A stretch of 64,000 nucleotides of DNA, taken from the NCBI GenBank assembly GCA_026874595.1, contig CM049311.1, forward strand, positions 61,508,453 through 61,572,452, in the 5' to 3' direction. The DNA is from Sipunculus nudus. Lineage: Eukaryota > Annelida > Sipuncula > Golfingiida > Sipunculidae. Numbering within the stretch: position 1 is the stretch's first letter; each line of letters opens with the position of its first letter. Made by a program: the position numbers and the translations under genes. Shown piece by piece: positions 10,082-35,728 of the stretch. Under the pieces are notes generated by a model, which ran no database searches, was not told the DNA's origin, and was given only the letters and a program-made list of their open reading frames with translations.

Positions 10082-10882
10082 ATGGTATTAGAAAGAGTTG
10101 TAGCACAACAACTCGTTTCTTACATTAAAATGAATAATCTGGAGGAGCCAATGCAGTCGGCTTATCGTATAGGTTATTCTACTGAAACAGCTCTGTTGCG
10201 TGTTCAAAACGACATTCTGAGAAGTATTGACGGACAGCAAGTCACAGTCTTGATCCTTCTTGATTTGTCATCTGCCTTTGGTACAATTGATCACCAGCTT
10301 CTTGTTTCAAGGTTGTCAGATGTGTATGGTATCAAAGATTTAGCTCTAGCCTGGATTAAGGCGTACTTCATTGTCAGTTGTCATTGGCGAAAGTGTTTAG
10401 GATGGATCCGTTTTAAAATCAGTGTACCTCAAGGTTCTGTTTTAGGCCCTATTCGTTTTACTATGTTAACAAAACCCCTCATACGAGAACATGGCTTAGA
10501 ATATGCTCTATATGCAGATGATACACGGTTGTACACGTCATGTTCACCTGGTGATCTGGACTATACCTTGAGAAAAATTGAGAAATGTCTGAACCATATT
10601 CAACATAGGATGATACAACACAAGCTTAAACTCAACAGTGACAAAACTGAGATGATTTTTATGGGTTCAGCTAAGCAGTTACAGAAAGTTATTAATCCTT
10701 GCATTTCTATTGGTACCTGTGCCATAAAACCAACCCCGAAAATGCGAAATCTTGGAGTTATTTTTGATGATCATATGAAACGAAAGGCACAAAGCAGTTT
10801 AATATCTAAGAGTGCTTATTTCAATCTGTACAACCTTGGGCGGATCCGCAATTATCTTTCAAAGTCAACTGCTGCACAGTAA
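10082..10882 (+). pseudogene. LINE reverse transcriptase domain
   Basis: A 266-codon open stretch of non-LTR reverse transcriptase. Visible blocks: AYRIGYSTETALLRV; LLDLSSAFGTIDHQLL (motif A; the conserved Asp after AF is Gly here); VPQGSVLGP; LYADDTRLY with the catalytic YADD at 10511-10522; KLKLNSDKTEMIF; NLGVIFDDHM. The frame is lost just after the thumb begins, near 10882. It would copy the element's own RNA at a nicked target. The upstream endonuclease frame is separate and broken, so the copy is dead. Confidence 0.9.
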
Positions 10883-10931
10883 GCACAGAGTTTGATTTTG
10901 TCGAGGTTAGATGTTTGTAATTTCATAATAT

Positions 10932-11309
10932 ATGGAGAACCCAAAGCTCAGATGTAAAGACTGCAAAGAATTCAAAATTCGCATTGTATCCAGATGTCCA
11001 AAACGTTATCATATATCACCCGTCTTGTTCGAGTTGCACTGGCTACCTATAGAATTTCGTGTTAGATTTAAAATATTGCTGCTTATATATAAGGCTCTCA
11101 ATGAGAAAGCACCTCTTTATATCACAGAATTACTCAAGTTACATTTTACACCTCGTGCATTGAGATCAAGTAATAAGTACATGCGTCCTGTGCTCTGGAA
11201 CAGTTTGCCGGACTATATAAAAAAATCAGATTCCATTGATATATTTAAACGCGCACTGAAGACTCACTTTTTAGGCAAGCCTATGATAATATTTTATGTA
11301 AAATGGTAG
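10932..11309 (+). pseudogene. LINE ORF2 C-terminal region
   Basis: This frame continues the LINE polyprotein after a frameshift. The block HISPVLFELHWLPIEFRVRF followed by YKALNEKAPLYI and WNSLPDYIKKSDSIDIFKR is the standard C-terminus of CR1/L2-type ORF2 proteins. TAG at 11307-11309 probably is the natural stop. Confidence 0.85.
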
Positions 11310-11680: not shown

Positions 11681-11689
11681 TAAATGTAA

Positions 11690-14600
11690 AAATTACAAAA
11701 AAAGTGGTGCCCCCAGTCTCAAGCAGCTGATAAATCTGTCCATGATCAATAAGCTAAGCAAAAATCATGACATTTCATGCATTAATTATCCAGATAGTGG
11801 AGGTTTTGTATCATTTGTTTAATTATTCTACGGTGCACAAATATCCCCATAGCTCTTAGGGTGTAGGTTGCACTGACCTAATTTCAGGTTTCCAAGGAGA
11901 GTACCAAACGCTCTGTGGTACGAAACTGGCTAGAGAGGAATACCTAAGAAGACCTTAATTTGATCCATTCTTTATAATCTTGAAATACTCTGGTCAAGTC
12001 ATCGATCACACTACCATCAGTTTTTTTTTTACAAAAATGGTAACCGGTCCCCCGAAACACGCAAAACACACGATGTTTTGTGTATCCGTGACGAAGCACC
12101 ACGAAACGCTCACAAACACGGGAACCAGTACTGACGCTGCCCCCTGTAACAGTGTTGGCGCAAGTCGCTGTCACGTTTAGGACTTGTCGGGTGTACGAAA
12201 CACTCGCGTTTCATTTTATTTTACAAAGATTTGTCAGAGTAACCGTCAGAACAGTTATTGAGCCAATAATGTAATGGCTGATACACCGACATGACTGAAA
12301 CTTTCTGGTCTCAAAATTGGAAAAAACCATATACGGCATCACCAGTGTCATAGAATTGAATTCCAAGGCAACCTGGGCATGAATTGTTGGAAAATAGGTG
12401 CTTTAGTATGAAATAGACCTCAAAATGGCTTGTTTGTTGTGGAAATTTCTTCAGGACATACCATTATAATGCATGTTGAACACCTTCACGATCAATGAAC
12501 AATGTGCATACCAGTTTCAGGAAAATACATGACCCAATTCCTGAGAAAATGACACCATTTGCACATTAGTTTTGCAGGCTCGCAAATACGAGAAATATGA
12601 GAAAAAAGCGTAGAAATAAACAAGGCCTACAGACCTAATGCGAACATGTGCAATGGGATATACATCAGGTATAATGTTTTCATGATAACATGCTTGACCA
12701 TTATTTGAAAGGTACTTGATTCTTTTTCAAGAACATGTGTGGCATGCATCACTCCTGGCATGAATGTACACAACATAAAATGATTGGAGGTGGTGCCACC
12801 AATCTTGTTTTGAAGAAAACTCCATCGTGGATTCGAAGATGTATGGACATGGAAAATTTCAGGCGGATACTTCAAACCACTCTTGAGCTATGTGCACAGA
12901 CATATGAAACCCAAAAAAAATTGTAGGTGGCGCCAAAGGTTTTGTATATGACAAAGCTATACGAGATGTATTAATTTGCCCAATTTCATTGTGATATATC
13001 AAATCCCTCCTGAGAAATAAGCAGGAACATACACTATGCAAAATCGTTGTAGGTGGCGAAACCAGTCTTGTGTACGAGAAAACCATCAAAGATGTATGGA
13101 CAAGTCAAAATATTAGGCCAATACATCAAATTTCTCTTGAGTAAGGTGCACTGGGCTGACTAACCTCAGCTGAAGCAGGCATTTGCCCCGAGTGAACCGC
13201 AACAAATTGACAACTGCAGCTACAGCACTGAGTGAACTCTTGACCTGCACTTGGCTGTACTGACTGAAGTCTTGACCTGTTGCCTAATCTGATACAGTTG
13301 GTAAATCTGTTTACACATACTGAAAGACTTTGGATACAATGCATTTTTCAAGCTGACATATTCATAAGATTTCTTTATCAAAATGTTTGGAAAAAATAAC
13401 AGATACCTATTGAAAGCAAAATTAGAATTAATATATATTTAATTCATTAATTTCTCTAACACATAAGCTATGGAACCAATTATTTATGTCGCCTTTACAG
13501 TTCTGCTTATATACCCAAAGAGTCCGGTTTGTTAACACAATAAATCTAATAGCTTTGATTACCAAAGTTTCTCACAGTCCTTTCATTGTTAAAAGTCGAG
13601 TAATTCTGCCAAAACATTTAAGTAAACTTGAACAAAGGCCACCTAAGAATAATTTTTGTGCACTGTTACATAAGTTGAAACAGCATTTTTGCAGTAGAAG
13701 ACTATTTGCAGGCCTCAGTTTGAAATTGGCTTACTAATTGCCACAAGACCAACTTCAGCTTTCTATGACTCTACCAAAAATCAATGAACTTGATCTGTTC
13801 TTATAAAATAGAAGTAACCCTGCCCTAGGATAATTCTTGTCAAAGAATTAAACCATTCAACTTGGCAGTTTCATCATAAAACATTTTTAAGCTGAAAGAG
13901 GCTAAAATTATGAGGTTTTTGTCCTGAAAAAACTGGTCAATGTATGTGGCGCCACCAAAAAACCTCAATGTCAAATATGAGTCGTGTGACCAACATTTGC
14001 ACAAAACTTGATACTAGCTTCTGTCGTTTCTGAGATTGTTTTGTCAGTATGCTTACTTGGCCATAAGACTAAGTTCAAATTTCTGTAACTCGGCCAAAAC
14101 ATTCATCAAACCCAAACCATTTGAACAAACTTGAGAGAGCTCGTGACTGGAATAATTTCTGTGAAATATTGAATAATTTGGCTGAATGATGTCGGAGAAG
14201 AAGGTTTTCAAAGGTTTTCAATCGTTACCCCGTAAAATGTACGTTGTTGCAGGTGGCGCCACAAAAAGCTCAATCCCACAACATATGAAATGTGACAGAT
14301 TTTCGCATAAAATTTGGGGATGCTAGCTCATATTATTCCTGAGAAATTATGGGTTAATGTACTGATGACCAATGACCCTCGTACAAGAAACGTACCTGCA
14401 GGTGCCGCAAACAATACCTCTGTTTCAAATATGACTCATTTGAACAACATTTGCATAAACTATGGTGATTATACCTCCAGCCGTTTCTGCTATTGTAAAT
14501 TTAGTATCCTTCTTCTGCCAAATGACTGAGTTCAGCTCCCTGTAACTCGGTCGAAAATCATGGAACGATTCGAACAAACTTGAGATTGTTTCAGGGATTA

Positions 14601-14788
14601 TTTCTATGAAATATTGAACAATTTGGCAGGACAATTTCTGAGATGAGTTTTAACTTTTTTTAGCTCTTTCTCTTTACAACCTAAGTCAATGCAGATAACA
14701 TAAAATCCGATGGAGTTTTTTTAGATGACTTTTTTTTGGCATAAAATCTGATGATGCTAGCTTCTGTAGTTCTTTTTAGATAGTACGG
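11690..14788 (+). repeat. Field of diverged tandem repeat units with GGTGGCGCCACC core
   Basis: No gene is supported. 11690-11915 matches the 61.3-63.2 kb array (GACCTAATTTCAGGTTTCCAAGGAGA wording at 11876 onward). Cores lie at about 12788, 12924, 13050, 13943 and 14251. Two further units (about 14128 and 14571) share GAACAAACTTGAGA and GAAATATTGAA..AATTTGGC, about 440 bp apart. 12640-12870 is matched in inverse orientation at 20400-20690. The field is interrupted at 14790 by the foldback element and may resume at 27445. Confidence 0.65.
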
Positions 14789-16355
14789 GTTATAGCTGCT
14801 GTCTATTGCTTCGAAAGATACCCCACCTTTAAGTCAGTGCGCATGCGCATAAGCTGGTTACCGCGAGCACCCGGTAAAAGTAAAACGATGCGTGTTGCCT
14901 GACGTACCCTTCATTACGGACGTTAAATACAGGCTTCTCTCTGACAACATAACAACAACAAGGCAAAATAGTTTTTATTAAGGGAATAAGAACCCATTTT
15001 CCGTTATTTGCGTGTACTAGTCATTTTGTGGATTCACATCTGACAAGAAGCGGCATCCTGGTTTTGACTCACAGCCGTGATCAGGGAAGCTGTCACCTCG
15101 GCTCAGGATCGTCTGGTCAGCGTCTGCAATCGTGTAGCTACCGTGAAAGTGAGTAATATAGCAATAAAATGCTAGGATTAAAACTACTAGCACGGTATAC
15201 GTGTGGAAATCACGTTATCTAATCTGATTTAACTAACGTTAGAAATATGAAATCTAGCGGACGTACTAGCGGACGTTAGAAGCGGCAGCTGGGCGATAAT
15301 ACGTGGACTTTTGTTTATTATTATATTTTTCATATGTAGGGTTTGCAAAGTACAATCAGGTTTATTGCAGATACGAAATATCTGCAAATGTGTCGAATAA
15401 TAGAATAATTATTATTCACTCTAAATTTGCACGTACTGTTGACCATTTTATCCCAATTGTTGCCAGTTTTTGATAAAGTTTTTAGAACAGGACGTGCCTT
15501 ATAGAAAGGTTGAAGTATAACTATAACTATAAACAAAGCCAAACCCGCCCAAGTTTGTCTATTTTAGATTGTTGAAATTGCTCCAGGATCAATTTTTCGT
15601 TTGTATGAAATTATATTTTTCTAATATTTTTGCATAGTTTAACCTGATTGCATAATGTTTTAGAACAAATATATTTTAATGCAATAAATTGTTTATTGAC
15701 TAAATCATGTTTATAACATACAAATGATATATCATTTTCATCATGAATCTCTAATTCTACTTATATAAATATATTTGTGTGTGCTTACCTTGAACCACTT
15801 GTGCAAGTTGTGGTGAAAATATATAAACATATATAATTGTATTTATGTATATTTATATATATACAATTATATATCATATATTTTTTTAGTTTAAATATAC
15901 TTTTTAAATTTTAACTCTATCTTTTTTATTTTTACTGTAGTCTCTGTCATGCATGAAATTAACATTTTCATATACTGCTAACTGAAATAGAAAGTATCAA
16001 ATCACTGTAAATTTTCAGTTTGTCACACTAAACGTTACTTATGATTGTGACTCCATTCAAGTTCTTAGGTGCATATATACCAGGAATATTCTATTGAATT
16101 GTTCTGCAAGAGTATTATGGTTCTTCTTAACATAGAAAGCTTATAATGTTGGCAAAATATATGTGTACAGTTGTGATTTACATGCATTTTGCAGATCCAA
16201 AGGATGGCATATGAACATATACAAAGCATATACATGTATTTGGACTAATCTTGTCATCTTGAGAGCAGCATGTTACAAAGAGAGCGATGAAAAAATTGAT
16301 CTGCATACAGACAGGTTATTTTTCATAGCACAGGAAGGAATCATTATGGGGGGTG

Positions 16356-16358
<3 letters not shown>

Positions 16359-16408
<50 letters not shown>

Positions 16409-16409
16409 T
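16359..16409. repeat. (TA)n microsatellite
   Basis: A run of about 50 bp of TA with one interruption (ATG). It is the left half of the TA tract that received the hAT-like element; the other half is 17281-17341. Confidence 0.95.
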
Positions 16410-17277
16410 TAGTGGTGGGAGTCGGTTCCTTTTTCATAGTCGATCATCGGTTTAAGCAAACCGACTGATGATCGATTATTAATCGGTTCAGACAAACATA
16501 TGCAATTATTAAAGAAATATGCAATTATCTGTGAAACTGTACCTGCGTTTCCCCGGCAGGTATTCTCCTCTCGCGCACGAGTGTAACGATCCTTCCACGT
16601 ATAAAGACAATCAGACTAATTTAAGGATCAAATTTAACGACGGGTAATATCTTTCAATGTGGAAATTAAGAGCGTCTAAGAATGTTAGGCCTATAGAGGG
16701 GCTGTTTTTCTATCCCATGAAGGCAGATTTTACGGGCCCAGGTGCGCTTGGGGCAGATCATACCAAAAAAAATTGCAGACCAAATACTCGACCGGCCGGG
16801 TTAGCCCCAACAAAGATTTTTGTTAAGGACGGCCTAAACAGCGGCACCTGGCATCGGTTGAATAGAATGTTTCTAAGAGAATCTCGCAAAATTGGCATAG
16901 ACCTTGAGAATTTATGGAGTATTTTAACGCCTTCCCGCTCATATTTTGCAGTCTACATCTCGTACGAAAACTCTCCGCTAATTCTGCAGCTCCCTGCGAG
17001 TTCACAAATAATAAGTTTAATAAGTCCTCCGTTCTCGCATCTATATACCGTGTCATACTCAGTTACATATGGCTGTTATTTGGGAACACAGACTCATTAT
17101 ATGAAGCACGGAATGTGGTAAAAAATTGAAAAATAAATATTGCTTATAACATAAAGGCATTCTGGAAATAATACAATCATTATTATGATGTAATCGATAG
17201 TTGCCTTTGGTAATCGAGCGCTTGAAAGTGGCAGCAAACCGACTGACTTTCGATAAAACTCGATGATCAGCCCACCA

Positions 17278-17280
<3 letters not shown>
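16410..17280. mobile_element. hAT-like non-autonomous element inserted in (TA)n
   Basis: 871-bp element with 10-bp perfect terminal inverted repeats TAGTGGTGGG (16410-16419) and CCCACCACTA (17271-17280). The flanking ATATATAT on each side fits an 8-bp hAT target duplication, though TA repeats make that weak. The subterminal AAACCGACTGA phrase occurs at both ends, and 16438-16476 can fold on itself. No transposase motif is recognised in the inner frames (the longest is 16657-17121). The terminal TAGTGGTGGG type is common among hAT elements (family knowledge). Confidence 0.72.

Positions 17281-17341
<61 letters not shown>
17281..17341. repeat. (TA)n microsatellite
   Basis: An uninterrupted TA run immediately right of the hAT-like element. 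Confidence 0.95.
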
Positions 17342-17342
<1 letters not shown>

Positions 17343-17899
17343 TGACAATGTAATGTTAGACGTGTTAATAAAAATTACCGGTAATAAGCCAAAGCTAAGG
17401 CTGTTCGTTCAGTTCCATCTTATAAATTGTGGTTAATATTTATAATCTGCTTTCAGATGGTAGTAATTTGAGGCTGTTAAAACATGTGCAGAATTTACAA
17501 GGAATAAATTCTGAATTCAGTGCCTGAACAACTCTAAAATGTCTTAATGTCTTGCTGGATGCCATTTTATTATTTTTCACATTCCTAAATGTAAATATTT
17601 AAACATAAATGCCAAACCTTGTGTAAGCATGAGCAATTTAAATAGTTTAAGAGGGTTTTTTTTTTATTAATTTTAAACCAATAAGGCCAAAAAGGGTATG
17701 GTTTTCAGGCATTGTACGGGTCAATTTTAACCCCCCCCCCTTCCTTTTTTTTCGAAACAAACAAAAAGGTTTTAAAAATAAGAGAACCATTCTCAGAAAT
17801 CAGTGCAGAATATGAGACTTTTTCTAAGTAGACCCGTACAGTAAAGAGTATGGATGACTTACATATGATACCCCATATGCTAACTAATCTACTAATATA

Positions 17900-20800
17900 A
17901 TGGTAACTAATATACAGCAGATATTACATGCCTTTCACTGCCATGATTCAACATACTTTCATAACTTTTTAATATAATTTTATAAAGTCAATGTTCCTGT
18001 CATAAATATTGAATCATTTCAATTTTAAAAGATGACAAATATTTACCAGATTTGTAATATGAAAAAATGCCAGTACAAAGGGTCTGGAAAGTACTGAAAT
18101 TTTTTTTTTGATAAATAAATGTTGCAAAGGAAACCTTTCATTTTATTATAGAACAATATTTAAAAAAAGTAGCATTTTTAATTAAATTAATTTCCTTTTA
18201 AATAATATAAGAGAATTCAAATATAATTAAACCCATCAGTAAGCATAACTTAATAATATTTAGCCAAATCATTTATAAATGAAGGTGCAATTTAGAATTG
18301 TGAATTCTAAATCAAGTGTTATTTTCAGGTATTATTGTTTTGCAGATTAAAAGGTATATTTTATATAAAAAAAAGTAATGCATCTATGTGCATAATGTGA
18401 CATTACCTGACCAAATTAGCTATAAATGTTGGTGCAATTTAGAATTATGAATCAACTTGAATATTTAGATATATATGTTATACTGTAAATGGTATTGTAA
18501 AAATTTAAAAACATGAAAAAAATTGATAATATAAAAAAATGAGGATCTAATGCAAACATTTATTCATTATTTTCCTGCCGCAGTAAAATAGGAATAAAAG
18601 TGATTTGCTTTGTTTTTTTCCCATCTCTCTGCCTGATTGTAAATATTTAATTATTATGAATAAAATTTTTTTCCTGAATGCACTGTTGAATTAAATGTCA
18701 TATCCTGTATGTATGTGCAAGGGTGTTCCCATTCCCCCTACCCCTGGGATTGTGTCCTTGCACCTGAGCACTGGGGACAATAGTTTTATTGCATCTGTAT
18801 AAAATTTATTAAATAAAGAAAATATATACAGAATTGCAGAGGTGTTGTAACATGATTTAACCCACCATCATGTCCTTCCACCTGTGAAGTGGGAACTTGA
18901 TGGCATCTGTATACATTTTATAAAATAGAAATCAAATTTGGTTTAATAAAAAAATAGGATCTAATTGGACAAATGTGTAAACTGCTGAACTGTCAACAGC
19001 TTATCAAAAAGCCAACAAATGATCATAAGAATATTATAGATTTATATTAAAAAACTGCTTACATGCTTCAGTTTCAACATAAGGAAACCTGGTCATGTCA
19101 CAAAATATTATTTGCAACAATTTCTTGCTCATCAATATAAACCAATCATATAAAACAAACAATGGCTTATATTACCTCTTCCTCTTACACTTTATCTCCA
19201 TTTGATTTTATTTTAGATTTTTACCTTCAAGGTCAAATTCAGCTGAGCAAAGTCACCCATATGTCCCTTGTTTTTCATGTGTATTTTGTCAAATATAACA
19301 TGTGAATTACATACCTATCTTATGGCTGCCAGTCAGAGATTTTCTTTTACTAACCTTGACACTCATGTGCATCTGTGCTCTCAAATTCAGAACCCTGTTA
19401 AATTCAATACAGCAGCCAGGCAAAAAGAGTTATACTAAGGTCTCCAGTTGTTTTCTTTAGTGAATTATATGATAAAAGCTTCGTAAGAATTACATAAAAT
19501 ATATACATTGTTGAAGGTGATATAACCTTTGTTGGAAGATTGTTTCATAGCTTCAAATGTTTTGATAATCAAATTAAGTTTTAATTTAACAATTTATTAT
19601 ATGCTGTACAGTACTATTTTTCATTATTACTGTTTGAATTCCATCCAAATTCTTTTACAGGAAACCCAGAGCTATGGTCATAGGAAAGTGAAGTTGATTA
19701 CCAGTACTACAGATTAATGTTTCACAAGATGACCATCATTCATCTAACAAACCTATAGGATAGGTGTGATCAAATTTAATTATCATCTGGAAGCCTGTAA
19801 ACTCTGAGAACTGCACGATAGTCACCATTTAGGACTGCACGAAAGCAATCTTGGATGCATCAGACCAGATAACTGCATTTTCCGCCGTGACACCAATGTG
19901 GAGGGCCAGCCACTGGCTCAGCTGCCAGTTTGATCACTAACCACCACCTTGACAAGTATCAATACCGCATTTAGATATGCAGCAAGAGCTCATTTTTATG
20001 AACCTCTGCAGGCAGCAAGAAGAGCCCAGGCTGGGAAAAATAGGTTTTACCCATATCAAATGTGAACCCTGAGTGTCTTGCAGCCTCATGATCAGTAGGT
20101 TAATGATCTGAAGGGTATGTTTTATAAACAAGAAATGATGCCTCCCTGGTCTGATGACTGCCAAAGACAAATGGCAAAAATAAGATTAAGTGCTCTGGAA
20201 AAGAAGAGTAGTCATCTTAGAAATAAAATAGAGTGAAAAGAATAACATTAGTAACTATAGCAGCATTTATTAATCAAAGATGTGCTTCATTTACTACAAT
20301 TTTTTATTTCAATATGTATCTTCAAAAGTCAGTGACAATCAAATAACAATGAGACGGCACATGATAATAAATTATACATGGAAACCCTGGTTTTAGAGTG
20401 GTTTGAAGTCTCTGTCTGAAATTTTTCATGTCCATTCAACTTTGATAGCCTGTTATACATATGACTGGTGGTGCCACTGACAATCATTTTTGTGTTGTGT
20501 ACATCCAAGCCAGGAGTACTGTTTGTGCAGTTGGTGCTTGTACTTGGGTTCAAAATATTTAGTATGTGTACTTGCTCTGTACATATAACTTAGCAAAGTA
20601 CATGTACTTTTAAAATAATGGTCAAGCATATCATCATAGAAACATTACACCTGATGTATATCCAATGTTACAGGTTCGCATTAGACCTGTAAGCGTTGTC
20701 TTGAAATTTGGACATTCTGTACACATGTATGTAAAATAACTCATGATGATTTTAAAGGCTCAAGTCAATTAAACCACCTAATGAGCAGAGGGTTGTTGGA

Positions 20801-22020
20801 ATTTTGTGCCAGAAGTTCTGTTGTCTAAAACAAGTAAATACATGACTGTAAGCCAAATTACGATTCACTAATTCATAGATCAGTCAGAATATTCCCCTAA
20901 ACAATTTTTCATTTGCAAATGCTTGCTATTGCAAATATCTATACTTAGAGCTTTTCTGCTTCTGGAACATTTTAATATTAATATTGATTGGCTTGTAGTC
21001 AAATTTAAAAATACAATTTATCTGTTCCAAGAGGGTTAGGGCAGAAATGTAAGTCTTCATGCCCTGGATGGTAGGGGAAGAAGTACCCCCCCCCTTCCAA
21101 AAAAAAATAAGCAGTCTTCTCACAGTTCCATGAATATAAGCCACTATGACTCACTTGTAAATTTGGAAGATACCACCTGAATCATTCAGGATGTTGCGCA
21201 AGAACTACATCAGTGAACAGAGGCAATTTGTTCCCTGCTTATAGCCTGCAGGAGGTAGTGTTGGACAATGGCAGATTGTTATAGCTGATGAGCTCAATAT
21301 CAAATTAATATTTACCATTATATTTCTATTTCTATCCCAGATGAAATTAACTGTACATTGTCCTGAAATTAACTTGCACATGTTCTCTTGTAAGTTAAAT
21401 GAAACTAGTGCATGGCCCTTGAGCCATAGCATTCAGCTGAATTCTACAAAAAAAAATAGATTGTGTTTTTTTGTTATAAGGCTGCCATACGGTCAGAAGA
21501 CTGGGAACACTCAGCTTGTAAGTGATGACAGCCACTGGCCCACAGGATAACTCCATGACTAGAAAGCTTAAAAACTTAGCAATTCCTATACTTTCTTGAC
21601 CTAGTTGTTGGGAAAGAATAAATGTTTATTGCTAGATTTCATTAATTTCTGAATACTGGCCAAGACATTACACATACATCAGCCAATCACATCAGTGCCC
21701 AGTCTCTGTTCTGGATGCAATAATGATGCCAAATCCATGACGTCAACATGGTAATATTCAGTCACCGATGGAGACAAATAAACAATACAAACACAGTGAT
21801 GATGATGAAATTGACAATGAACAAGACAACACTGGTTTACAGTACCATGTAAAGAAACACATCACAACTAGACATTTCTTGGCACCGCAGGTGCCAGAGT
21901 ATCCCCAGACATAGTAGGCCCCCACCCCCTTTATAAATAGACCCCCATTTTTAGCAGCATATACTGACACTTGGCATATTCATTGTTTCTTCCATCTAAC
22001 AATCCACAATCTTGTTAAAG
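17900..22020. other. Foldback-element spacer, non-coding
   Basis: AT-rich, no supported gene. It contains diverged local duplications. TTAGAATTGTGAATTC and TTAGAATTATGAATC (about 18290 and 18440) lie in ~150-bp repeats. TGTCCTTGCACCTGAGCACT and TGTCCTTCCACCTGTGAAG (about 18755 and 18870) lie in ~120-bp repeats. Short frames here look like chance. Confidence 0.5.
20330..20700 (-). repeat. Inverse copy of GGTGGTGCCACC-type tandem unit
   Basis: The reverse complement matches 12640-12870. Shared phrases include ACTCCTGGC..GAATGTACACAACA, AATGATTG..GGTGGTGCCACCA, GGACATGGAAAATTTCAG, CTTCAAACCACTCT and the flanking CAGACCTAATGCGAAC. It is a dispersed copy of the same family inside the foldback spacer. 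Confidence 0.7.
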
Positions 22021-23560
22021 ATGTTGGTCCTGTGACCTTGATCTTTTTAAAGATGTGTCCTGTGACCTTGACCTGTGACCTCATGACCCCAAAATCAAAT
22101 CTGGTCTTGCTTTTCCAATGGGACATATGCAAGTTAAGTTTGAAATCTATACATCAATAAAGCAGGAATTATCACCCAGAAACTAATTTTTGGACAGATG
22201 GCTCCTGTGACCTTCACCTTTGACCTTGTGACCTCAAAATTGATAGTGTTCTTCCTCTCTTGGCAGGAGAACTATATGTGCAAGATGAAAGATCTGAGAT
22301 GAAATGTTTGGATGAAAATGCATCCACATCTTTTTAAAGATGTGTCCTGTGACCTTGACCTTTGACCTCATCACCCCAAAATCAATTTGGGTCTTGCTTT
22401 TCCAATGGGACATATACAATCAAGTTTGAAATCCATACATCAATAAAAGCAGGAATTATCATCCAGAAACTAATTTTTGGACAGATGGCTCCTGTGACCT
22501 TCACCTTTGACCTTGTGACCTCACAATTGATAGGGGTCTTCCACTCTTGGCAGGTGAACTATATATGCAAGATGAAAGATCTGAGATGAATTGTTTGGCT
22601 GAAAATGCATCCACAATCTTTTTAAAAAGGTTTCCTGTGACCTTGACCTTTGACCTCATGACCCCAAAATCAATTCAGGTCTTGCTTTTCCAAAGGGTCA
22701 AATACAAGTCGAGTTTGAAATCCATACATCAATAAAAGCAGGAATTATCATCCAGAAACTAATTTTTGGACAGATGGCTCCTGTGACCTTCACCTTTGAC
22801 ATTGTGACCTCAAACTTGATAGGGTTCTTCCTCTCTTGGCAGGTGAACTATATGTGCAAGATGAAAGATCTGAGATGAAATGTTTGGCTGAAAATGCATC
22901 AGCATCTTTTTAAAGGTGTGTCCTGTGACCTTGACCTTTGACCTCATAACCTCAAAATCAATTTGGGTCTTGCTTTTCCAATGGGACATATACAAGTCAA
23001 GTTTGAAATCCATACATCAATAAAAGCAGGAATTATCATCCAGAAACTAATTTTTGGACAGATGGCTCCTGTGACCTTCACCTTTGACCTTGTGACCTCA
23101 AAACTGATAGGGGTCTTCCTCTATTGGCAGATGACTTACATGTGCAAGATGAAAGGTCTGAGATGAAATGTTTGGCTGAAAATGCATCCACAATCTTTTT
23201 AAAGATGTGTCCTGTGACCTTGACCTTTGACCTCATGACCCCAAAATCAATTGGAGTCTTGCTTTTTCAATGGGACATGTATAAGTCAAGTTTGAAATCA
23301 ATTCATCAATAAAAGCAGGAATTATCATCCAGAAACTAATTTTTTGACAGATAGCTCCTGTGGCCTTGACCTTTGACCTTGTGACCCCAAAATTTATATG
23401 GATCCTCCACTACTGGCAAGTGAGCTATATATTCAAGATGGAAGACCTAAGATGAAATCATCCACAGTATCTTTTAAAATGCCAGTCCAGTGACCTTGAC
23501 CTTTGACCTCATGACCCTAGAACCTATAGGGTTCTTACTTTAGTGGTGGGCCATACATAA
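22021..23560. repeat. ~288-bp tandem array (about five copies) rich in TGACCT half-sites
   Basis: Units repeat with steps of 287, 288, 288, 289 and 276 bp, measured at the phrase TCCTGTGACC (22058, 22345, 22633, 22921, 23210, 23486). A second phrase, GCTCCTGTGACC, gives the same period (22201, 22488, 22777, 23065, 23354). Each unit has two clusters of TGACCT-type half-sites, one of them containing TGACCTTTGACCT, a perfect direct repeat spaced by one base. Copies are close to each other in sequence except the last, which is diverged. Frames in the array are repeats of each other, not genes. Confidence 0.93.
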
Positions 23561-24178
23561 GTCATGTTTGAAATCCATATGGCTATCAACACTGGAGATA
23601 TCATAAGAGGTGTGTGATTTTCACCATATATGGCAATATTCAAGGTCAAGGCCACTATCATAGGAAAGGTCATGACCCCAATTTAAATAAACATCATCCC
23701 ATAACCCATACCTATGTATATGCATAATATAAAAGAAATCTGTCCATTAGTTTTTGACTTATAATGCTCACAGTACTGTAAGGTGGCAATTTTGGGGGTA
23801 TTAAACGGCACAAAAACAAGTAAAGAATAATAGGTGGCGCCACCAGTTTCTGGAACATGACAACCCTATCCATGATCTTCCATCAACTTTATTTTTGGAT
23901 AAATCCATGCAAGATTTCTTGAGATATTAAAGAATTTGTGTGATTTTCCCCAAAATTGGACCTATTCAAGGTCAAGGACACTCCCCTAGTAAAGGTCATG
24001 ACCTCATTTTAAATTGGCGTCGTCCTCTCACCCATATCTATACATATTCCAAGTTTGGTAAAGTTCCGTGAAATATTTTTTGGGTTATCGCGCCAACACG
24101 ATTTATATGCGGCGGCGGCGGCGGCGGCGGGACCGGTATGAAAACATAGTATCCCCCGACTTTGTCTGGGGATACAAT
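23560..24178 (+). repeat. Diverged repeat units, CGG microsatellite and terminal hairpin
   Basis: Two related units contain TTCAAGGTCAAGG and AAAGGTCATGACC (about 23640 and 23965), with a GGTGGCGCCACC core at 23832-23843. They are followed by a (CGG)n run at about 24108-24129 and a perfect 8-bp hairpin GTATCCCC/GGGGATAC at 24149-24175. Together with the 288-bp array this looks like one pearl/Helentron-type element whose 3' end is the hairpin (inference). Confidence 0.6.
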
Positions 24179-24179
24179 A

Positions 24180-25560
24180 ACCTTGGTGGGGAAATGTTGT
24201 TTAATGCAGGTGACTGTCTTTACAAAACTGAATGCCATAAAAATTTGATTACCATGAAGTTTTTAAATAATAACATATTAACTTAAATACTTTGATGTAT
24301 CATCACAGAAATATTGACCATAGGCTCTGTGAAGCAAGAATCATATGCAAGTTTTAAATTAATTTATTCAGGTCTCTACCTCTGAAAAATTGAATGTTCA
24401 GACATTTCTCTGCTGCTATATAAGCATTCAATATTACCTTCCGTTTAGTAAAAAAGTTGCCTGTTGCTAGGTTTACTGTGACATTATTTATGTCACAGAT
24501 TCATGCTGTTCAACAGTCAGAGTCCAATTTATGATAATATCTTGTAGGTGTTTATGAGGACCATCTACACAGTCCCTTTTAAAATTGATAAACCATCTGC
24601 AGATACAATATGGCTTATACAGTATTTATTACTAAAATATGTAATTATCCATTTTCTTCTGTCATCATTTGACATGGCTGATTTGGCTTGTATATTCTTC
24701 ACTCTGCTGACTTTTGTGGTCATCTATATCAGTAAGTGTCTGGTGGCCAAAAGAAAATTCTGACATCTGTTGTCCAAATTAAATAGTGAATTGTATCTGT
24801 TCTGTTAATTGTTGTCTGTGGCAGGATGGTTGCTCATAGGCATATCAGATAAAGACTGAAACAAAAATTTGATTTTATCAGAACATGCTTTCTAATACAT
24901 TCCAACATTAAAAAGAAGGCATTTTTTAATTAAGCATATCTTTGACAACATTTTTTATTTGATCTCTGAGAAGATGTTACCCTAAAGTTGATGAAAGTAA
25001 TAGATCAGATGTAATTTGTGTAATAAACTTATTTCTTATAGTAGAACATGTTGACTGATTTTAAAAATATCTTAAATAACTCATAGCCCGTTGTGTTCAT
25101 TGTGCCTCCCCTGGATGTATATACCCGTAGCCCTAGTCGCACATTTGGTAAAAAGAATATTTTCATAATGAGATTATTTTTATCATTTTTTATTATCTCT
25201 TATTTGGTTCACGTCATATACCTTAACCCCCCCCCCCCCAACACACATGCGCACAAATGCCTGTTAATATATATTCTACAAAACAACTGTGTCTGACATT
25301 TTAGAGAGACAGTTAACAAACATTTCAACAGATTTAAATTAGTGTTTTACAAAACTTGACAGGTGATAACTCATCTTATATTTATCATGAGTGGCAGATC
25401 AGAAGGCAAAAAAGACATAAGGGTTTACTGCATCAAGTATTATTTTGATCTAGTTTATGAAAAATATTAATGATTTTATATTAATATGTTAATATGGCAA
25501 TAAGGTGCCCCAATTTCCTCCCACGGATGGCATATTCTGACAAATTTGTGCAGATATCTA
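24180..25560. other. Foldback-element spacer, non-coding
   Basis: AT-rich and without supported genes. A C-run is at about 25230-25240. Nothing further is seen. Confidence 0.5.
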
Positions 25561-27444
25561 TATGGAGATACCATATGTAGTCATCCATACACTTTACTGT
25601 ATGGGTCTTATAAGAAAAGCCTCATATTTATATTGCCTAATGATTTTAAAATAAAAAGACATAGTAATTTTAATTGTATAAGTTACCAAGAGAATTGAAA
25701 GTATATTTAAATATTTACATATAGGAACACAGAATACAAATGGGGTGGCATCTAGCAAGACACGGGGATAGATCACAGATTTAGGAAAAGGAGGGGTCCA
25801 ACCCAGGAGGACTAATGATAATCCATAAAAAAGTCTACACAGGCCTGGAAAGGGGGAGTGGGGGAATGGGGGTCCTGGGTTCAAAATTTGGGCTTTAACT
25901 CTGAAAAAAAATATTGTGACAGCTTGAAAGGGGGACAGGGGGTCCGGAAGCCCTGGACCCCACAACTGGATCCACTTTCAACTTAGATATTTTTAAAATT
26001 GTAAAGAGTTACTGACTTCAAAAGAAGGTTTTCCTTGTATATTTGGCAAAATATGCGTCAAATTTCTGCCATCAGAGTGATCAGACAGCAGATTTTAAAT
26101 ATTAACCACAATTTGGGAGAGGGAATTCAAGGAACAGTCTCAGCTTATTACCAGTCACTTTCATTTACAGGACTAACAGTACATTGCCAATGCATATGAA
26201 TACTCAGATTATGTATTCAGTTGGATATTCCTTGCACAGTTTGCACCTATGAACAGGAATGGAGACATGAAATATTTAGTTCAACACACTGTGAAAAAAT
26301 TACAATGGTTTGATACTTTCTATTTTGGTTGGCGCTATATAAAATATATTAATTTTATGTATGACAGACCCTACTGTATAAAAAACCCATGAAAGTCGAA
26401 ATATAATATATATACTAGTATACAATATTATAAGATATTTTCTTTCAAATATAAATAATATTTATAAACTGAAACAAACACAAAAATATGTATAATTTTT
26501 AGATATTTTCTCACCACAACTTTAACAAGTGGTTCATGGTAAGCACACATACACGCAAACACACATTTATATTAGTAGAATTAGCGATTCATAATGAACA
26601 TGAAATATCATTTGTATGTTATAAACATGATGTAGTCAATAAACAGATTACTGTATTTAATTAAAATATATTTTTTCTAAAAATTTATGCAATTCATACA
26701 AATGAAATATTATTTATGGGAAAAGTCTATTAGTATTACTTTATACTTATAGTATAGGCACGTCCTGTTCTAAAAACTTGATCCATCAGGTGGGATAAAA
26801 TGATCAACAGTGCAAATAAATTTGGAGTAATTAATATTTATTGTATTGTTTGACACATTTGCAGTTATTTGGTATCTGCAATTAACCTGACGGAACTTTG
26901 CAACCCCCCCCCCCTTATAAAAATATAATAATAAACAATAATAAATCCACGTATTATCGCCGAACTGCCGCTTCTACAGTCCGCTAGATTTCATAATTCT
27001 AACGTTAATTTAAAATAAATCAGATAGGATAACGTGATTTTCATATGAATACCGTGCTGGAAGTTTTACTTGCTATACTACTCACTTTCACGATAGCCAC
27101 ATGATTGCAGACGCTGACCAGACGATCCTGAGCCGAGGTGACAGCTTCACTGACCACAGCTGTGAGTCAAAACCAGGATACCGCTTCTTGCCAGATGTGA
27201 ATCCACAAAATGACTAGTACACGCAAATAACAGAAAATGAGTTCTTATTCCCTTAATAAAAACTATTTTGCCTTGTTGTTGTTATGTTGTCAGAGAAAAG
27301 CCTGTATTTAACGTCCGTAATGAAGGGTACGTCAGGCAACACGCATCGTTTTACTTTTACCGGGTGCTTGCGGTAACCAGCTTATGCGCATGCGCACTGA
27401 CTTAAAGGTGGGGTATCTTTCGAAGCAATACACAGCAGCTTTAA
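25560..27444 (-). repeat. Right arm of foldback element (with ~200-bp G-rich insertion)
   Basis: Reverse-complement partner of the left arm. It carries a G-rich dispersed repeat at about 25780-25985 that the left arm lacks. The outer end is ...ACACAGCAGCT at 27430-27440, mirroring AGCTGCTGTC at left. Confidence 0.85.
25780..25985. repeat. G-rich dispersed repeat ending in GGATCC
   Basis: The phrases GATTTAGGAAAAGGAGGGGTCC, AGGAGGACTAATGAT, GGGGGTCCGGAAGCCC and GGATCCACTT are closely paralleled at 42785-43000. It is absent from the matching place in the left foldback arm, so it inserted after the arms arose. Confidence 0.65.
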
Positions 27445-30201
27445 TGTACGGCCGGCGGTCGACAGACGACGGACGACGCCACACCATCGCATAAGCGCAG
27501 AGGTTCGCTTAAAAGATTGATGGTACGAAGTGACGTCGGCACAGCAGATCTCGAGTGTCATCTACGTCCTCCAGCAGCGCTCCTCTAGTAGGCCCCCAAG
27601 AGGAATTTTGTGAGGCGGTACAAACAGGTTTCCGGGACCACTCCTCTTTCCTCCTTGTAACACTTATTCAGTTTCACGGATCTAATCAACTCTGTTTTCA
27701 AACTGAAGCCATCTAGTCTATTGAAGGGGTAACAGTGGATGGACTGTGAGAATCTGATGTAATGGAAAGCTTTATTGTTTTCCTGCAATTAGACCAAAGG
27801 ATATGTTTCGTTATGGAAGTGATGATAACTAATTTTTACTAATGTTTGGGTTGACACATGAAAAAGAATATATTTAAAAGAATATACAAACTGAAACAAT
27901 TGACGGAAAGGACCACCTGACTAAAACAATACGGCCAATACATTTTCTACAGCCTTCCCTGTAGGATGAAAGCAAATAAATATTAAAATTAGGTAAATTA
28001 CACTAACGTTAGTGCGTCGTACTAAATATCAGTCCGAAAGCTTTGCCTGGTTATTTTGATGTAACCAAGAGTTTCTGATGACCCAGGTTCCGAGTGTGTC
28101 ATTGTTATTTTCCCCATAATGCTAGGTTATGAGAAAACGATGAAATAAAGGTTCGTCGATGATCCCTGCGTCTGACCGGCTGTATATTGAAAAACACCTA
28201 CAACTCTGAGATCGACTGAGGCACTGAATGTTTAGCCCCTCCTTAGGGGCTGTCAGTTAAAATGAAAATGAAATTAAATGCTCCTATAATCATACCGACT
28301 ATATGCCTATCCTATAAGTTAGGCAGGAAGCAGAGGAAAGTGGAAATATGTTTAAGTTTCAGTCATTTGCAGTCCGAGGTTCGTGAGAGAGATGATGGCT
28401 TCTAATACAGGCAGATTTAAATCATTTTAAATTTTAGTCTGTTTTATTGTTGACATAATGAAAATAATGATAAATACATGTAATAATATTTAATATATTA
28501 ATAATATATATTACTATTATTAATTTCAGTACATGGACATCGGTATAGATGGGTCTGTGCCATGTCTACTCATTTAGCTATTTATAATCCCTAGACATTG
28601 AGGATCGGTAAACGGGCCTGACCCATCTTATGATGGGCGACCTAAATCCGATTGCGCACGACATATATGTATTTTTTATACAAGGCTGTCACAGTGAAAA
28701 AAATAAGGATGATATGAATATTCACTAAGTTTTACAATGTGATAGCTGATCTCATGATATAAACAGCAGCAGATTAAGACCTAAAATTCTAAAGTAAAAT
28801 AAAAAAATCTGAATCATTTGTTTTACATATATCCAGGATTGGAAACCTGAACTTCAATAATGCTTGTGCACCATACCGCCCTCCTGTAGTGAATCAACGG
28901 GTTATCGCCATAACGGTGCAGCAGATCCTGTGTGACATTTCCTATATTAGTTTTACATGCACCGGCTGACATCGGTTGTAGGCGCAACCTTAATCCATTG
29001 AACCTCTGGGTAATCACCGCACCATATTTTATTTCAGCTTGTTCAGGATTAAGGATTGAACAATCCATGATACCTCACGAAGGGCTGATATTATGGACCT
29101 ATAATGAGAGTAATGTGTTCCGACAAACGTATATGTAAGGCTTCTCTTTTTATATTGTATTCACTTTGCAGTCAACAACCGCTGGATAGAAAACAGCGGA
29201 GTGATACTGTACTTGGTGACCCAGGCAATTATTCACCGGACGTACGTAGGCCTGACACTGTGGTTGCACCTCATTTAGAAAAAGTTAATTTACCGAGGTC
29301 TCCACACTGACAAGCCTATCCCAACACGTTATTGACTAAGAGAGATCCTAAGAAACAATAATATATCAAAGTTTATCTGAGTGCACGCGGAAATTACCGC
29401 TAAACACATGACTATGGGACTTTTTATTTCTACTTAGGATTTCAAGGGTTGCTCCTTTATTATTTCCTATGTATTGTCTCATGTATGGTTATGGTTGAGG
29501 GACATAAAACGACATCTTCAATATGTGTTGGCCTTCCTCTTAATTACGGAGAGTATATTCATAACAGCCATATTTCGATTGCTTACCGAACATTTCCTCA
29601 AGTAAGACAGTGAAACCCACGGTGCAGCTATTGTTGCAAGCTTCGTCTTGCCACATGACCCACACCACATACAACAGACCTCGCCCTTTCGCCAGACATC
29701 GTTTCAAACCCCTCCCTGTAGGCGTTATGGAACGGTGGGAGGTAGGCCACTCGTGATAACTGTCATACATGAAAATAAAAATGTATTACATTTCAAGGAA
29801 ACATCTGTTTATATTTCACTAGCGCTATTTCTGTCCTCTGACATTAGAGAGTCTATATACGACCAGCTCCATGGCTGTCAGAGTGCCGTTACATTATTCA
29901 GCTAGGAATGCACTTTAACGCGCTGTGGGGATGCAAATATTTTCGTCATTTCTGACAGCACCTCATGGCCAACAAGTAGACTGTCACTTGACATAAACCA
30001 GCGTGCACAAAATATTGGCTTTATGCACAGGTGTACAGGCGTGGCTCCCAGGCATTGCTTTGTGAACATAAATGCTGTTGTGAGTGACGTAAAACTGTTT
30101 ATTGTAAAGGTTGTTTTTAAACTTATGCCGATAAATAGGCAGAGAGGCGGTCTACTGGGAAGAGAGCCATGACATTAATAAGAATATCTGTTAAACTAGG
30201 G
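27445..30201. other. Non-coding stretch
   Basis: 27445-27480 (GGCCGGCGGTCGACAGACGACGGACGACG) looks like the microsatellite end of the repeat unit interrupted by the foldback element. Beyond it I see no gene, RNA or repeat I can support. The small frames at 28823-29310 and 29540-29905 overlap on opposite strands and have no recognisable domain. Confidence 0.4.
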
Positions 30202-30460
30202 TGAACAGAAGGCATTTTATATATATACACATAGAAACAGTAAAGCGAGACAAGTGGGACAGCAATAGCTAGTCCAGACGTAACGTAATAGCTTGTTGTC
30301 AGCAGCCCTGGCTAGCAGGGGTTGAGCTGACCTTTTTGTATTAGTAGTTCAGTGAATACATTAGTATATAGCAAGTCGTGTGTCTTCGTATCGTTCGTTG
30401 TGTGTCTGTTCCAAGTCGGGAGCAGTTGATATGAATGGAATTATTGTGGAAAGCGGACCA
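30202..30460 (+). repeat. BEL/Pao 5' LTR
   Basis: Starts TGAACAGAAGG and ends GCGGACCA. It aligns along its length with 35729-35983. Shared blocks include GACAGCAATAGCTAGTCCAG and CAGCCCTGGCTAGCAGGGG. By eye the two LTRs differ at more than a dozen places plus small indels, so the insertion is not recent. Confidence 0.93.
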
Positions 30461-30463
30461 TAT

Positions 30464-30482
30464 TGGTAGCACAGCGTGGTTA
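30464..30482 (+). promoter_or_regulatory. Candidate primer-binding site
   Basis: TGGTAGCACAGCGTGG lies three bases after the 5' LTR. It begins TGG, as needed to pair with a tRNA 3' CCA end. The complement fits a tRNA acceptor and T-stem layout, but I cannot name the tRNA. Confidence 0.6.
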
Positions 30483-30527
30483 TGTGAGTACTTTTGATAC
30501 ATTTTAAAGACCTATTAAAGCAAAAAT

Positions 30528-31480
30528 ATGTCGCAAACACTGAGACAGCAGACTGGTGACCTAAGTGAACCAGCCCATGCTGAGGTGGAAGCAAAGCTGT
30601 TGACCGTGCTATAGAGCTCCGTACAGCAAAGCCTAAACTGAAAGCTGCCTTTACAAGGTCACGGAGACAAGTGATAGAACTGAAGCAATGGAAGTTCTGT
30701 CAGAACTATGTGACAAATATTTGCATTCTGTTTTATTTAGAGAATTTCGATAAGACATGTGCTGAAATGAGAAAATAGAAAACAAATTTGCTGATACACA
30801 AAATAAAGTATCAGCATACTTTAAAATGAAGAAAGTCGAATCCTCGTCTCGTGACGTTATCGGTTGCCAGCGGCGGCACCCGCCTTAAAATGGTCACCAT
30901 GAAGTCTACGGTAAATATGCCACTACAGAATAAAGAATGTACACCATCCTCCATGTAGCAAAAGAATAAGAATCCGACAGAAAATGAAAACATTTCAAGT
31001 AAGTCACCATCAGAAACACAACCTAGTGATCACAGTCCAGCAGCGCAAGCAGAAAAGCCCACTACAAGAGAATCAACTAGTCACAGGACGTCTGTCGAGG
31101 TTGATAATCTTAACTTTGGTGACTTACGATCTCAAGCTCCGACGTTCGTACCACAGCAAGGTGAGAGTACTCGTGATACAAACAGAAACAGTCGAGCTAT
31201 AGAAAATGATCTCTGGAAACAACTGAAACGTGTTTCGATTCCAGTTTTCTCGGGTGACGTAAAACATTACAAGAACTGGAAGGCTGCCTTCACTGCGTGT
31301 ATAGATCAAGCCCCAGCAACACCAGAGTACAAGTTGCTTCAGTTACGTCAGTTCTTATCTGGGGAGGCACTGCGCTGTACTGCCGACGAAGTAGGCCTTG
31401 CGGTATTGATGGATGCAGAGAAAACCACAACAGATTACTGCATGCAGGGACTACGGTTAAATCTAAACCAGGTGAGGAGA
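30528..31480 (+). pseudogene. BEL/Pao gag remnant
   Basis: An ATG at 30528 opens a short frame (MSQTLRQQTGDLSEPAHAEV) that meets a TAG after about 28 codons. A neighbouring frame continues with a typical N-terminal Gag helix (LRTAKPKLKAAFTRSRRQ). Around 31205-31400 another frame shows WKQLKRVSIPVFSGDVKHY and NWKAAFTACIDQ, the conserved core of BEL Gag. Gag would package element RNA. It is broken by stops and shifts. Confidence 0.75.
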
Positions 31481-31539
31481 TAGGGAAGGGGGATCAGCCT
31501 AGTGCAGAAAGATATCCTACAAATCAAACCTTAACGTCT

Positions 31540-32135
31540 ACTGATCGGGGCCAATCAACCTATCTTGCTCTCAGAACAGTACCAGTGATACTGAAACATG
31601 GAAATCACAGAATCAAGGTCAATGCCCGGTTAGACGATGCCAGTACAACAACATTAGTCAATGCCGACGTTACCGCAGAAATAGGTCTACAGGGCAAGAC
31701 ACACAAAACAACAGTGCATGTATTGAACGGGCAAGTGGAAACATCCGACACCATGCCAGTGGAGGTATAGGACTAGAGAGCCTTAATCGAGATGTAGATA
31801 CAGTAATCGTAGCAAAAACAGCCGACAGAGTGACCAAAGATCTACAAGTTATTGATTGGAATCAATGCAAGGGAAAGTTTAACCATCTGAAAAACATCGA
31901 CTTCCCTAAATTCGGAAAAAGGGTCCAGGTTGACCTTCTTATCGGGCTGGACAATGCAAACTTGCAACATAGCATAAGAAAAGTTTACGGCAAGCCTGGG
32001 GAGCCAACCGCAAGGTTAACCAGGCTCGGTTGGACATGCACCGGCGGTCCGGTGTGGTACCTTCCGTTGTTCGAAACTAGTGCAACTTTGCCAGAACGTA
32101 CAATGCACGAGAAACGTCAGTTTTACATGAGATAG
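31540..32135 (+). pseudogene. BEL/Pao aspartic protease remnant
   Basis: The catalytic region LDDASTTTLVNADV (LDDAS at 31630-31644) and LGLQGK-like text match the peptidase A17 family, in which D-D-x-S stands in place of the usual D-T-G. The frame stops with TAG at 31768-31770, and the second half (VDLLIGLDNANLQHS, then GEPTARLTRLGWTC) runs in another frame to 32135. It would cleave Gag-Pol; it is broken here. Confidence 0.8.
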
Positions 32136-32139
32136 ATTC

Positions 32140-33303
32140 ATCTCTTCGTCAGTTCTGGGAGGTCGAAAGTGTAAAATCGAAAACATATGATCAAATTTTA
32201 AATCCAGACGAACAAAGCGCGATGCAGATTGTGAAAGGGTCATTGAAATTTGAACATGGTCAATATCAAGTTGCGATACCTTGGAAGGCAGATTGGCCAT
32301 GTTTACCAGACAGTCCTGAGATGGCACAACATAGACTTAGGCTGACAGAGGAAGGATTACAGAAAGATTGCCAAAATTGGACAAGCATATTCGCAGGAGA
32401 ATTGGAAAAAAGGCTATACTCGTAAAGTTCCCGATTCTGAGGTGAAGGGAGAAGACTCTTGTCAAAAATGGCTTTTACCACACTTTTCTGTGGTGAGACC
32501 AGATAAATCGACTACAAAAACACGTGTGGTATTCGACGTATCCGCTAAAGTGGACGGGGTCTCATTGAACGATCAAATCCACAAGGGACCAAAATTGCAA
32601 ATGGATCTTTTAGATGTTCTGCTTCGGTTTCGTAGAGAACCCATCGCTATTGTGTGTGAGAGATGTACTTACAGGTGTCAATACCACCACCAGACAGAAA
32701 GTACCACAGATTTCAGTGGCGAGATCTAAACCAAAGGAAAACCCCAGATGTGTACGAATTCCAAAGGGTTGTGTTCGGAGTCAACTCTTCGCCCTTTTTG
32801 GCACAGTTTGTAGCGCAAGAGCATGCCCGAAAACACGAGAGTGAATTTCCAATGGCTGCAAAGCAATTCTCAAGTCCACTTACATGGATGATAGCATGGA
32901 CTCTGTTGTTGGTGATGAGGCAGGATGTCAACTGTATAAGGAGCTGTCTACCCTATGGGCACTAGCAAGTATGCATGCTAGAAAGCGGCTTTCAAATTCT
33001 CCAACAGTGCTCTCTAAGATACCATTCACTGACAGAACACCCGAAATTAATCTTGAGGAGGGACAGCTACCCTCTGTGGAAACACTGGGTGTTCTTTAGC
33101 GAGCTGATGGTGATGAATTTTTATTTCGTATGAGGCCTCTGAAAGAAGGCTTCAAATTGTCCAAACGGAACCTCCTTCGAAAGATTGCAACAATATATGA
33201 CTCAATGGGATTCCTGTCGCCATTTATTATTCGGGGAAAGATTCTGATGCAGGAAATATGGGCCGCAGGCATATATTATGATGGTTCACTTCCGGAAAGT
33301 TGA
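32140..33303 (+). pseudogene. BEL/Pao reverse transcriptase remnant
   Basis: Pieces in changing frames. A linker (about 32150-32425) is followed by KTRVVFDVSAKVDGVSLNDQ, then QRVVFGVNSSPFLAQFVAQE, then the catalytic YMDDSMDSV with YMDD at 32881-32892. KRNLLRKIATIYDSMGFLSP follows. Stops lie at 32423-32425, 32727-32729, 33097-33099 and 33301-33303; the last two look like single-base changes of Trp codons. It would make DNA from element RNA; it is not functional. Confidence 0.88.
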
Positions 33304-33820: not shown

Positions 33821-34048
33821 TAAGAATCAATGCTTGGGTCAGACGCTTCATTGAAAACTGTCAACTTGGCAAACTTATCGTAAGACTGGTAAGCTGCGTG
33901 AAACTGAACTCGTGATTATTTGAACATCATTCGCAGATGAATACTCAGCTCCGAAAAAGGGAAAGGAGTTACCAGGGTCAAGCAAGATCTTGGGACTCAG
34001 GCAAAGGCTCGATGACTTGGGTATAATGCGATGTGAGTCGATTGCAAT

Positions 34049-35715: not shown

Positions 35716-35728
35716 GAGAAGGGGGAAA
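35716..35728 (+). promoter_or_regulatory. Polypurine tract of BEL/Pao element
   Basis: GAGAAGGGGGAAA is a 13-base purine run that ends exactly at the TG start of the 3' LTR, the expected place for plus-strand priming. This also fixes the LTR start. Confidence 0.85.

Follow-up and report, generated by a model that had tools for sequence, protein, structure and literature searches.

A gene-free foldback element in Sipunculus nudus is very probably one copy of a TTAA-targeting, non-autonomous DNA transposon family

What is the long foldback that occupies more than 12 kb of a 64,000-nucleotide stretch of the genome of the sipunculan annelid Sipunculus nudus (assembly GCA_026874595.1, contig CM049311.1, positions 61,508,453 to 61,572,452; the window in what follows), and why do its outer ends resemble each other so much more closely than the inner parts of its arms? 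A preliminary description of the window, made from the letters alone, left three options for its nature: a non-autonomous DNA transposon, a gutted Maverick-like element or an inverted duplication. The dispersed copies, the TTAA duplication and the empty site described below favour the first option and tell against the other two. The element is very probably one copy of a family of non-autonomous foldback DNA transposons that target TTAA, are likely served by a Kolobok transposase and have ends that appear to convert each other.

The long inverted arms, about 1.9 kb each, are confirmed by self-BLAST and by residue alignment. Inverted matches join 14790-15503 to 26753-27444 and 15647-16099 to 26215-26693, and fainter pieces reach 17878 and 25560 (BLAST E values of 9.6e-25, 1e-12 and 1e-9). 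The outer segment aligns without a gap over 360 bases at 96.1% identity, 14 positions being substituted; going inward, the identities are 86.0%, 75.8%, 82.6%, 75.7%, 74.4% and 88.2%. The contrast between near-identical outer ends and decayed inner arms that had been remarked on before is thus borne out, and the drop is abrupt, with a change point after 15131 (mismatches at 11 of 342 positions before it and 47 of 333 after it, a difference reached in none of 2000 permutations). Unrelated inverted segments aligned in the same way, in 60 trials per length, gave mean identities of 65.7-67.8% and maxima of 73.3% (360 bp), 74.8% (220 bp), 79.1% (130 bp) and 80.4% (70 bp). The 75.8% and 74.4% pieces (62 and 125 aligned bases) fall inside this range, and their homology rests on BLAST scores and collinear order; the 75.7% piece (210 aligned bases) barely exceeds the control maximum. 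The stretch 16101-17314 of the left arm, which is partly a nested element, has no counterpart on the right. Self-alignment was also inspected for similarity running past 14790 and 27444, which the preliminary description had named as evidence against an element with these ends, and none was found. Its limits, 14791..27444, are to be narrowed to 14794-27440 for the element proper, and its size of about 12.65 kb is inflated by nested insertions.

The left outer block, 14794-15149, differs from the rest of the element in composition, CpG not being depleted there (observed/expected 1.04 against 0.42 for the element). Both outer blocks hold the palindrome TGCGCATGCGCA, which goes by the name NRF1, and a splice-donor-like GTGAGT stands at the block edge at 15149, mirrored at 27080. 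The motif and the palindrome suggest, as a lead only, an inward promoter and first exon. In Mutator elements, long arms are reported to contain binding sites for the transposase as well as promoters that point inward (PMC3310237), which serves here as an analogy only.

Single-copy outer ends would, according to the preliminary description, have spoken against a transposon. In the assembly (1.43 Gb in 153 contigs) the outer 410 bp has at least 41 genomic matches, a lower bound, as scoring covered 40 of 80 candidates. Allowing three mismatches at most, the terminal 28-mer occurs at 58 genomic sites, and its reversed control at none. Forty-four of these termini form 22 facing pairs, spaced 7263-23507 bp apart (median 9820); 14 are unpaired in this list, one of which, C1:53382715, does have a partner, whose outer end is damaged (copy C1b, from the 410-bp search). 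Ten further copies, fetched whole in halves, all align collinearly to that of the window, with identities mostly of 88-97%, and lie in both chromosomal orientations. Edges aside, nine of the ten retain the entire body (17281-21867 and 24174-26216); C6b lacks about 20974-24238 and carries an insertion. Among 22 interior samples from 21 further places, 18 match the body wholly or partly, the partial matches including L035 (about 420 bases) and L043 (only about 120 bases, in the inner right arm). In sample L030, from copy C4:85089882, the match is confined to the nested element and its edge, and L034, L054 and L055 do not match the window element. Divergence among 11 copies is 4.0% and 4.3% in the body segments, 4.6% in the inner left arm and 5.7% in the inner right arm. 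More distant ends also exist: L051 and L052 have related arms, and L051 further matches the inner 24281-26216 at 83-88%, part of which recurs in L052; L050 matches in pieces of the outer block only. The family is therefore old. The exact end patterns had no match in viral contigs and none in genome contigs.

At three single ends (C2:25130601, C2:79132904 and C11:51509029) a different sequence lies 2.2-3.4 kb inward, and the samples of the three are mutually unlike. Each end may belong to a fragment, adjoin a nested insertion or mark a variant that differs in its interior; the C2:25130601 interior showed no Pfam domain in ten frames of two of its three pieces (all but L034).

The copies end in TTAA-AG...CT-TTAA, with the terminus AGCTG[C/G]TGTGTATTGCTTCGAAAGATACCCC. 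Of the 20 ends that belong to the ten other whole copies, 18 carry TTAA, as does one of the two ends in the window. Where both ends could be read, in nine copies, TTAA abuts AGCTG...CAGCT (or a one-base variant) on both sides in seven; C9 likewise carries TTAA left and right. Among the 58 termini, 51 show exact TTAA, a biased count, as the search pattern contained TTAA. Outside TTAA no flush shared k-mer of four or more was found in any of nine copies; 3-mers match in two of the nine, one of them C3, whose empty site already reads AAC-TTAA-AAC. This copy lies inside a repeat, and its joined flanks align for 800 bp, at 87% identity, to L017:2148-2948, where TTAA occurs once, so that the empty site has one TTAA and the filled site two. 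The empty site and the copy ends together therefore define the element as AG...CT with a TTAA duplication. A family with shared ends and a duplication of 3-4 bp, which the preliminary description named as support for a transposon, was found, the duplication being the 4-bp TTAA. A Mutator or Mutator-like element (MULE) was rejected, as it needs a duplication of 8-10 bp.

Some details of the target site count against this reading. The left target copy reads TTAT in the window and ATAA in C16, and the left end of C1b is lost. A second paralogue of the C3 flank, at 40937-41508 of the window, has a single TTAA but lacks 13 adjacent bases, and a third (L017 2945-3427) differs at the site, which leaves one full empty site, L017a. 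Separately, L046 68-306, the left flank of C2:25130601, is the same repeat as L017 1-240, the left flank of C9 (90%); judged from the left side alone, this is a possible second empty site.

The copies share a lack of recognisable genes. A six-frame Pfam search of 14791-27444, with stops read as X, returned nothing credible (best E 0.17, to YtkA, below the cut-off), which upholds the preliminary description of a spacer with no transposase, polymerase or integrase. As a positive control the same procedure, in forward frames only, recovered the Pao element at 30202-35982 through its Pao peptidase, DUF5641 and integrase zinc-binding matches, the last below the cut-off. The six frames of copy C1a, minus its last 1.6 kb (right arm), gave a best E of 0.21, and neither C1a, to that extent, nor the window copy shows in six frames a DDE transposase with the THAP/H2CH domains expected of Kolobok. 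No frame mapping to the window element exceeds 173 amino acids in the window or in the ten other copies. A weak codon-phase bias appeared near 18600-19260: in one segment, tested in 72 overlapping windows, the lowest p was 0.0024 before any correction, and in the other, tested in 31, it was 0.077. We read this signal as probably chance because no mapped frame in any copy is longer than 173 amino acids. Rfam at gathering thresholds gave no match.

How might such an element move? A transposase supplied in trans, most likely from the Kolobok superfamily, would bind the outer blocks, and the whole element would be moved by cut-and-paste. The outer blocks would stay alike by converting each other, and the inner arms, broken by indels, would be too different to do so. 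Membership in Kolobok is a provisional assignment from the ends and the duplication; the lack of a transposase among the sequences scanned counts against it, and no autonomous copy, which the preliminary description expected to name the superfamily, was found among them. Kolobok elements have TTAA duplications and 5'-RR ... YY-3' termini (PMC9587614). The former is seen here in one full filled/empty pair, and the latter as AG...CT once TTAA is removed. The ten tabulated full-length copies of Xenopus Kolobok (XKol) have AG ends and measure 6.8-13.9 kb, and Xenopus T2-MITE was assigned to Kolobok on TTAA and AG ends (PMC6004289). The foldback class is indicated by the very long terminal inverted repeats, the non-coding middle and the dispersed copies. 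Tandem subrepeats in the arms were not found, Tandem Repeats Finder returning nothing there beyond an AT-rich run of 57 bases and TA repeats; such subrepeats mark Tetris (PMC4079207) and Tm1 (PMC3169594), but the class as a whole may not require them. KolobokP was rejected as a candidate, since it needs long direct terminal repeats and the long repeats here are inverted.

Another superfamily that duplicates TTAA, such as piggyBac, Sola3 or an unclassified group, might instead have acquired foldback arms. The duplication in Sola3 is also TTAA. So is that of piggyBac, and in one piggyBac of an oyster the terminal repeat measures 528 bp (PMC10813416). The ends listed for piggyBac in the same source are CACTA, CCCTC, CCCTT and CCCAT, against AGCTG here, and AG/CT fits the RR/YY rule of Kolobok (PMC9587614). 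We consider a source outside Kolobok unlikely.

Comparison with known systems shows in what respects the element would be new. It shares the TTAA target and AG termini with T2-MITE and XKol and falls within the size range of the latter, but the tabulated 16-base left and right ends of XKol differ, and XKol stands apart from an element with arms of about 1.9 kb and no recognisable gene (PMC6004289). KolobokP of bivalves, where it is rich, belongs to the same superfamily by TTAA and RR/YY, but its long terminal repeats, of about 450 or 660 bp, are direct (PMC9587614). Tetris of Drosophila virilis has arms of up to 1735 bp, a middle without apparent coding capacity and no autonomous copy; it differs by duplications of 8-10 bp and arm tandem repeats of about 220 bp, against TTAA and arms without an array here (PMC4079207). 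Tm1, a Mutator/Foldback element of nematodes, has foldback-like arms and members without coding potential, but also 9-bp duplications, arm subrepeats of about 14 bp, a member of 1080 bp and a transposase in other members (PMC3169594). The Kolobok-type elements described in the cited papers end in short sequences or, in the case of KolobokP, in long repeats of direct orientation. The literature searched holds no foldback element of the Kolobok group, most subscription journals and Repbase being outside its coverage. If the assignment to Kolobok is right, an element with TTAA and AG ends, 1.9-kb inverted arms and a fixed gene-free body of 9.5 kb extends the foldback structure to this group.

The likeness of the two ends had been put down to selection or conversion; the copies favour conversion, and selection is unneeded. 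Eight sites in the outer block tell left from right ends in most copies, as defined on nine copies with C16 and C12 left out. Five copies, that of the window among them, keep all of the marker states apart, or all but one. In C12, the left outer block has right-type states at all eight sites on a left-type inner arm. Both ends of C16 agree at 8 of 8 sites, the right end having been typed by hand from its position, as an insertion cuts off the inner arm and automatic typing calls it left. The states in C9, C6b, C17 and C8b are mosaic. The distance between left and right ends is 4.2% within copies against 4.7% for unmatched ends, and random pairings of the 11 copies came as close in 2 of 5000 cases, a result driven partly by subfamily structure (C17/C8b) and not by conversion alone. 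Between copies, the outer blocks diverge by 3.9% on the left and 3.7% on the right, much like the body. The two ends therefore already resembled each other at the time of the family's spread, and their later drift has been much like that of the remaining sequence, conversion intervening now and then.

Selection rather than mutual conversion might nevertheless have kept the ends alike. Its best evidence consists of the palindrome TGCGCATGCGCA, intact in 21 of 22 ends, and of the greater variability of the inner arms between copies relative to the outer blocks. Both observations, like the hand typing of C16 and the subfamily structure, weigh against conversion, and they leave room for some constraint on the ends. 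Set against them, the outer block diverges about as fast as the gene-free body, and its outermost 80 columns (variability 0.015-0.017) are not the least variable, that place being held by the 40-column bin at columns 200-239 (0.0125). Selection acting on separate ends would also not give the two ends of one copy shared states, as in C12 and C16. We regard selection as an improbable explanation, and conversion appears to account for the likeness better. The left/right marker pattern constitutes sequence evidence for conversion between the two ends of one transposon, and it suggests how a foldback element can keep its ends similar even as its inner arms decay.

A Maverick/Polinton that lost its genes and kept its long terminal repeats is very improbable. 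The window copy, at 12.65 kb, is just below the range of intact vertebrate elements (12.7-24.6 kb), the length of its outer block is close to the mean of their repeats, 402 +/- 276 bp (PMC8097293), and the window, taken alone, shows the 6-bp direct repeat GTACGG near the ends (14783-14788 and 27446-27451). This repeat was rejected as a target duplication and is considered a coincidence: no flush 6-bp repeat appears in the other copies read, these and the empty site show the 4-bp TTAA, and 6-mer matches of this kind arise in 226, 520 and 1635 of 60000 random placements at a slack of 1, 2 and 4. The element also measures only about 9.5 kb once the nested insertions are removed. Mavericks have 6-bp duplications, AG/AGT end motifs and eight core genes (PMC8097293); none of these was found here, the AG/AGT-repeat end motif being missing and the six frames of the two copies containing no polymerase, integrase or capsid domain. 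An immobile local inverted duplication, or two opposite copies of one repeat, could produce the arms seen in the window alone but is scarcely credible, given that the same ends and body recur on many contigs in both orientations, that a filled/empty site pair exists and that, in the stretches compared, neither arm has a direct repeat of six or more bases shared by its outer and its inner end.

Two elements that inserted later account for the length of the window copy. The small element at 16410-17280 sits between TA repeats and recurs in copy C4:85089882, whose outer 410 bp is 98% identical to that of the window copy; therefore a copy carrying this element moved or was duplicated. The 2.3-kb insertion at 21868-24173 is flanked by ACAA and carries 4.9 copies of a 289-bp repeat. 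Its site is uninterrupted in nine of the ten other whole copies, the tenth, C6b, having its deletion there; the five printed copies read CACATCACAATAACC (C16, C8a, C12 and C3) and CACATCACAATTACC (C1a), with one ACAA each. Diverged relatives of the 289-bp repeat occur in L047, and a stretch of the repeat had no match in viral contigs.

Gene-free, non-autonomous DNA transposons usually shrink, for instance to miniature inverted-repeat transposable elements. In this family the shortest of the 22 paired copies is 7.3 kb long, and there is no short derivative among them. The 21 paired copies viewed inside (10 whole, including that of the window, and 11 by samples) all have some body or inner arm; C3:44044558 is the one without an interior sample. 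The absence of short derivatives is a testable oddity. Possibly, though we hold this to be doubtful, the 9.5-kb body itself is needed or useful, through cis signals, a long inverted transcript or some other function aiding transposition or persistence; alternatively, the family may have spread too briefly to lose its interior. The related subfamily represented by L051, which keeps at least about 2 kb of inner sequence at 83-88%, mildly favours a needed interior.

Table 1. Features of the foldback element and its target site, in window coordinates
Feature	Coordinates	Strand	Evidence
Left target-site copy, TTAT	14790..14793	+	End reads
Whole foldback element, 5'-AG ... CT-3' termini	14794..27440	.	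Arm alignment, comparison of copies
Left arm, outer block	14794..15149	+	Near-identity to right outer block, CpG, TGCGCATGCGCA at 14838
Left arm, inner, diverged from right; 16101-17314 unmatched	15150..17878	+	BLAST, segment identities
Nested small element, ends TTAGTGGTGGG/CCCACCACTAA	16410..17280	.	Absent from ten other whole copies
Spacer, no recognisable genes	17879..25559	.	Copy comparison, reading frames, Pfam
Nested 2.3-kb insertion, ACAA duplication, 289-bp tandem array	21868..24173	.	Copies across site
Right arm, inner	25560..27084	-	BLAST, segment identities
Right arm, outer block; TGCGCATGCGCA at 27385	27085..27440	-	Segment identities
Right target-site copy, TTAA	27441..27444	+	End reads

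The rest of the window contains a host gene and several repeats. A gene for an inhibitor of apoptosis lies on the + strand at 1-5200, with BIR exons at about 40-710, a UBA exon at 2974-3405 and a RING exon at about 5028-5160; among the 120 matches listed for its protein, animals are widely represented, at identities of 27-60%. Fragments of a non-LTR (long terminal repeat) reverse transcriptase occupy 9293-11309 (RVT_1, E 4e-24, at 9995-10879). The Pao element at 30202-35982 is a decayed BEL/Pao element with LTRs of about 258 bp that are 88% alike. At 61302-63202 lie tandem repeats, diverged and with units of about 345 and 166 bp, which are related to 11686-11900.

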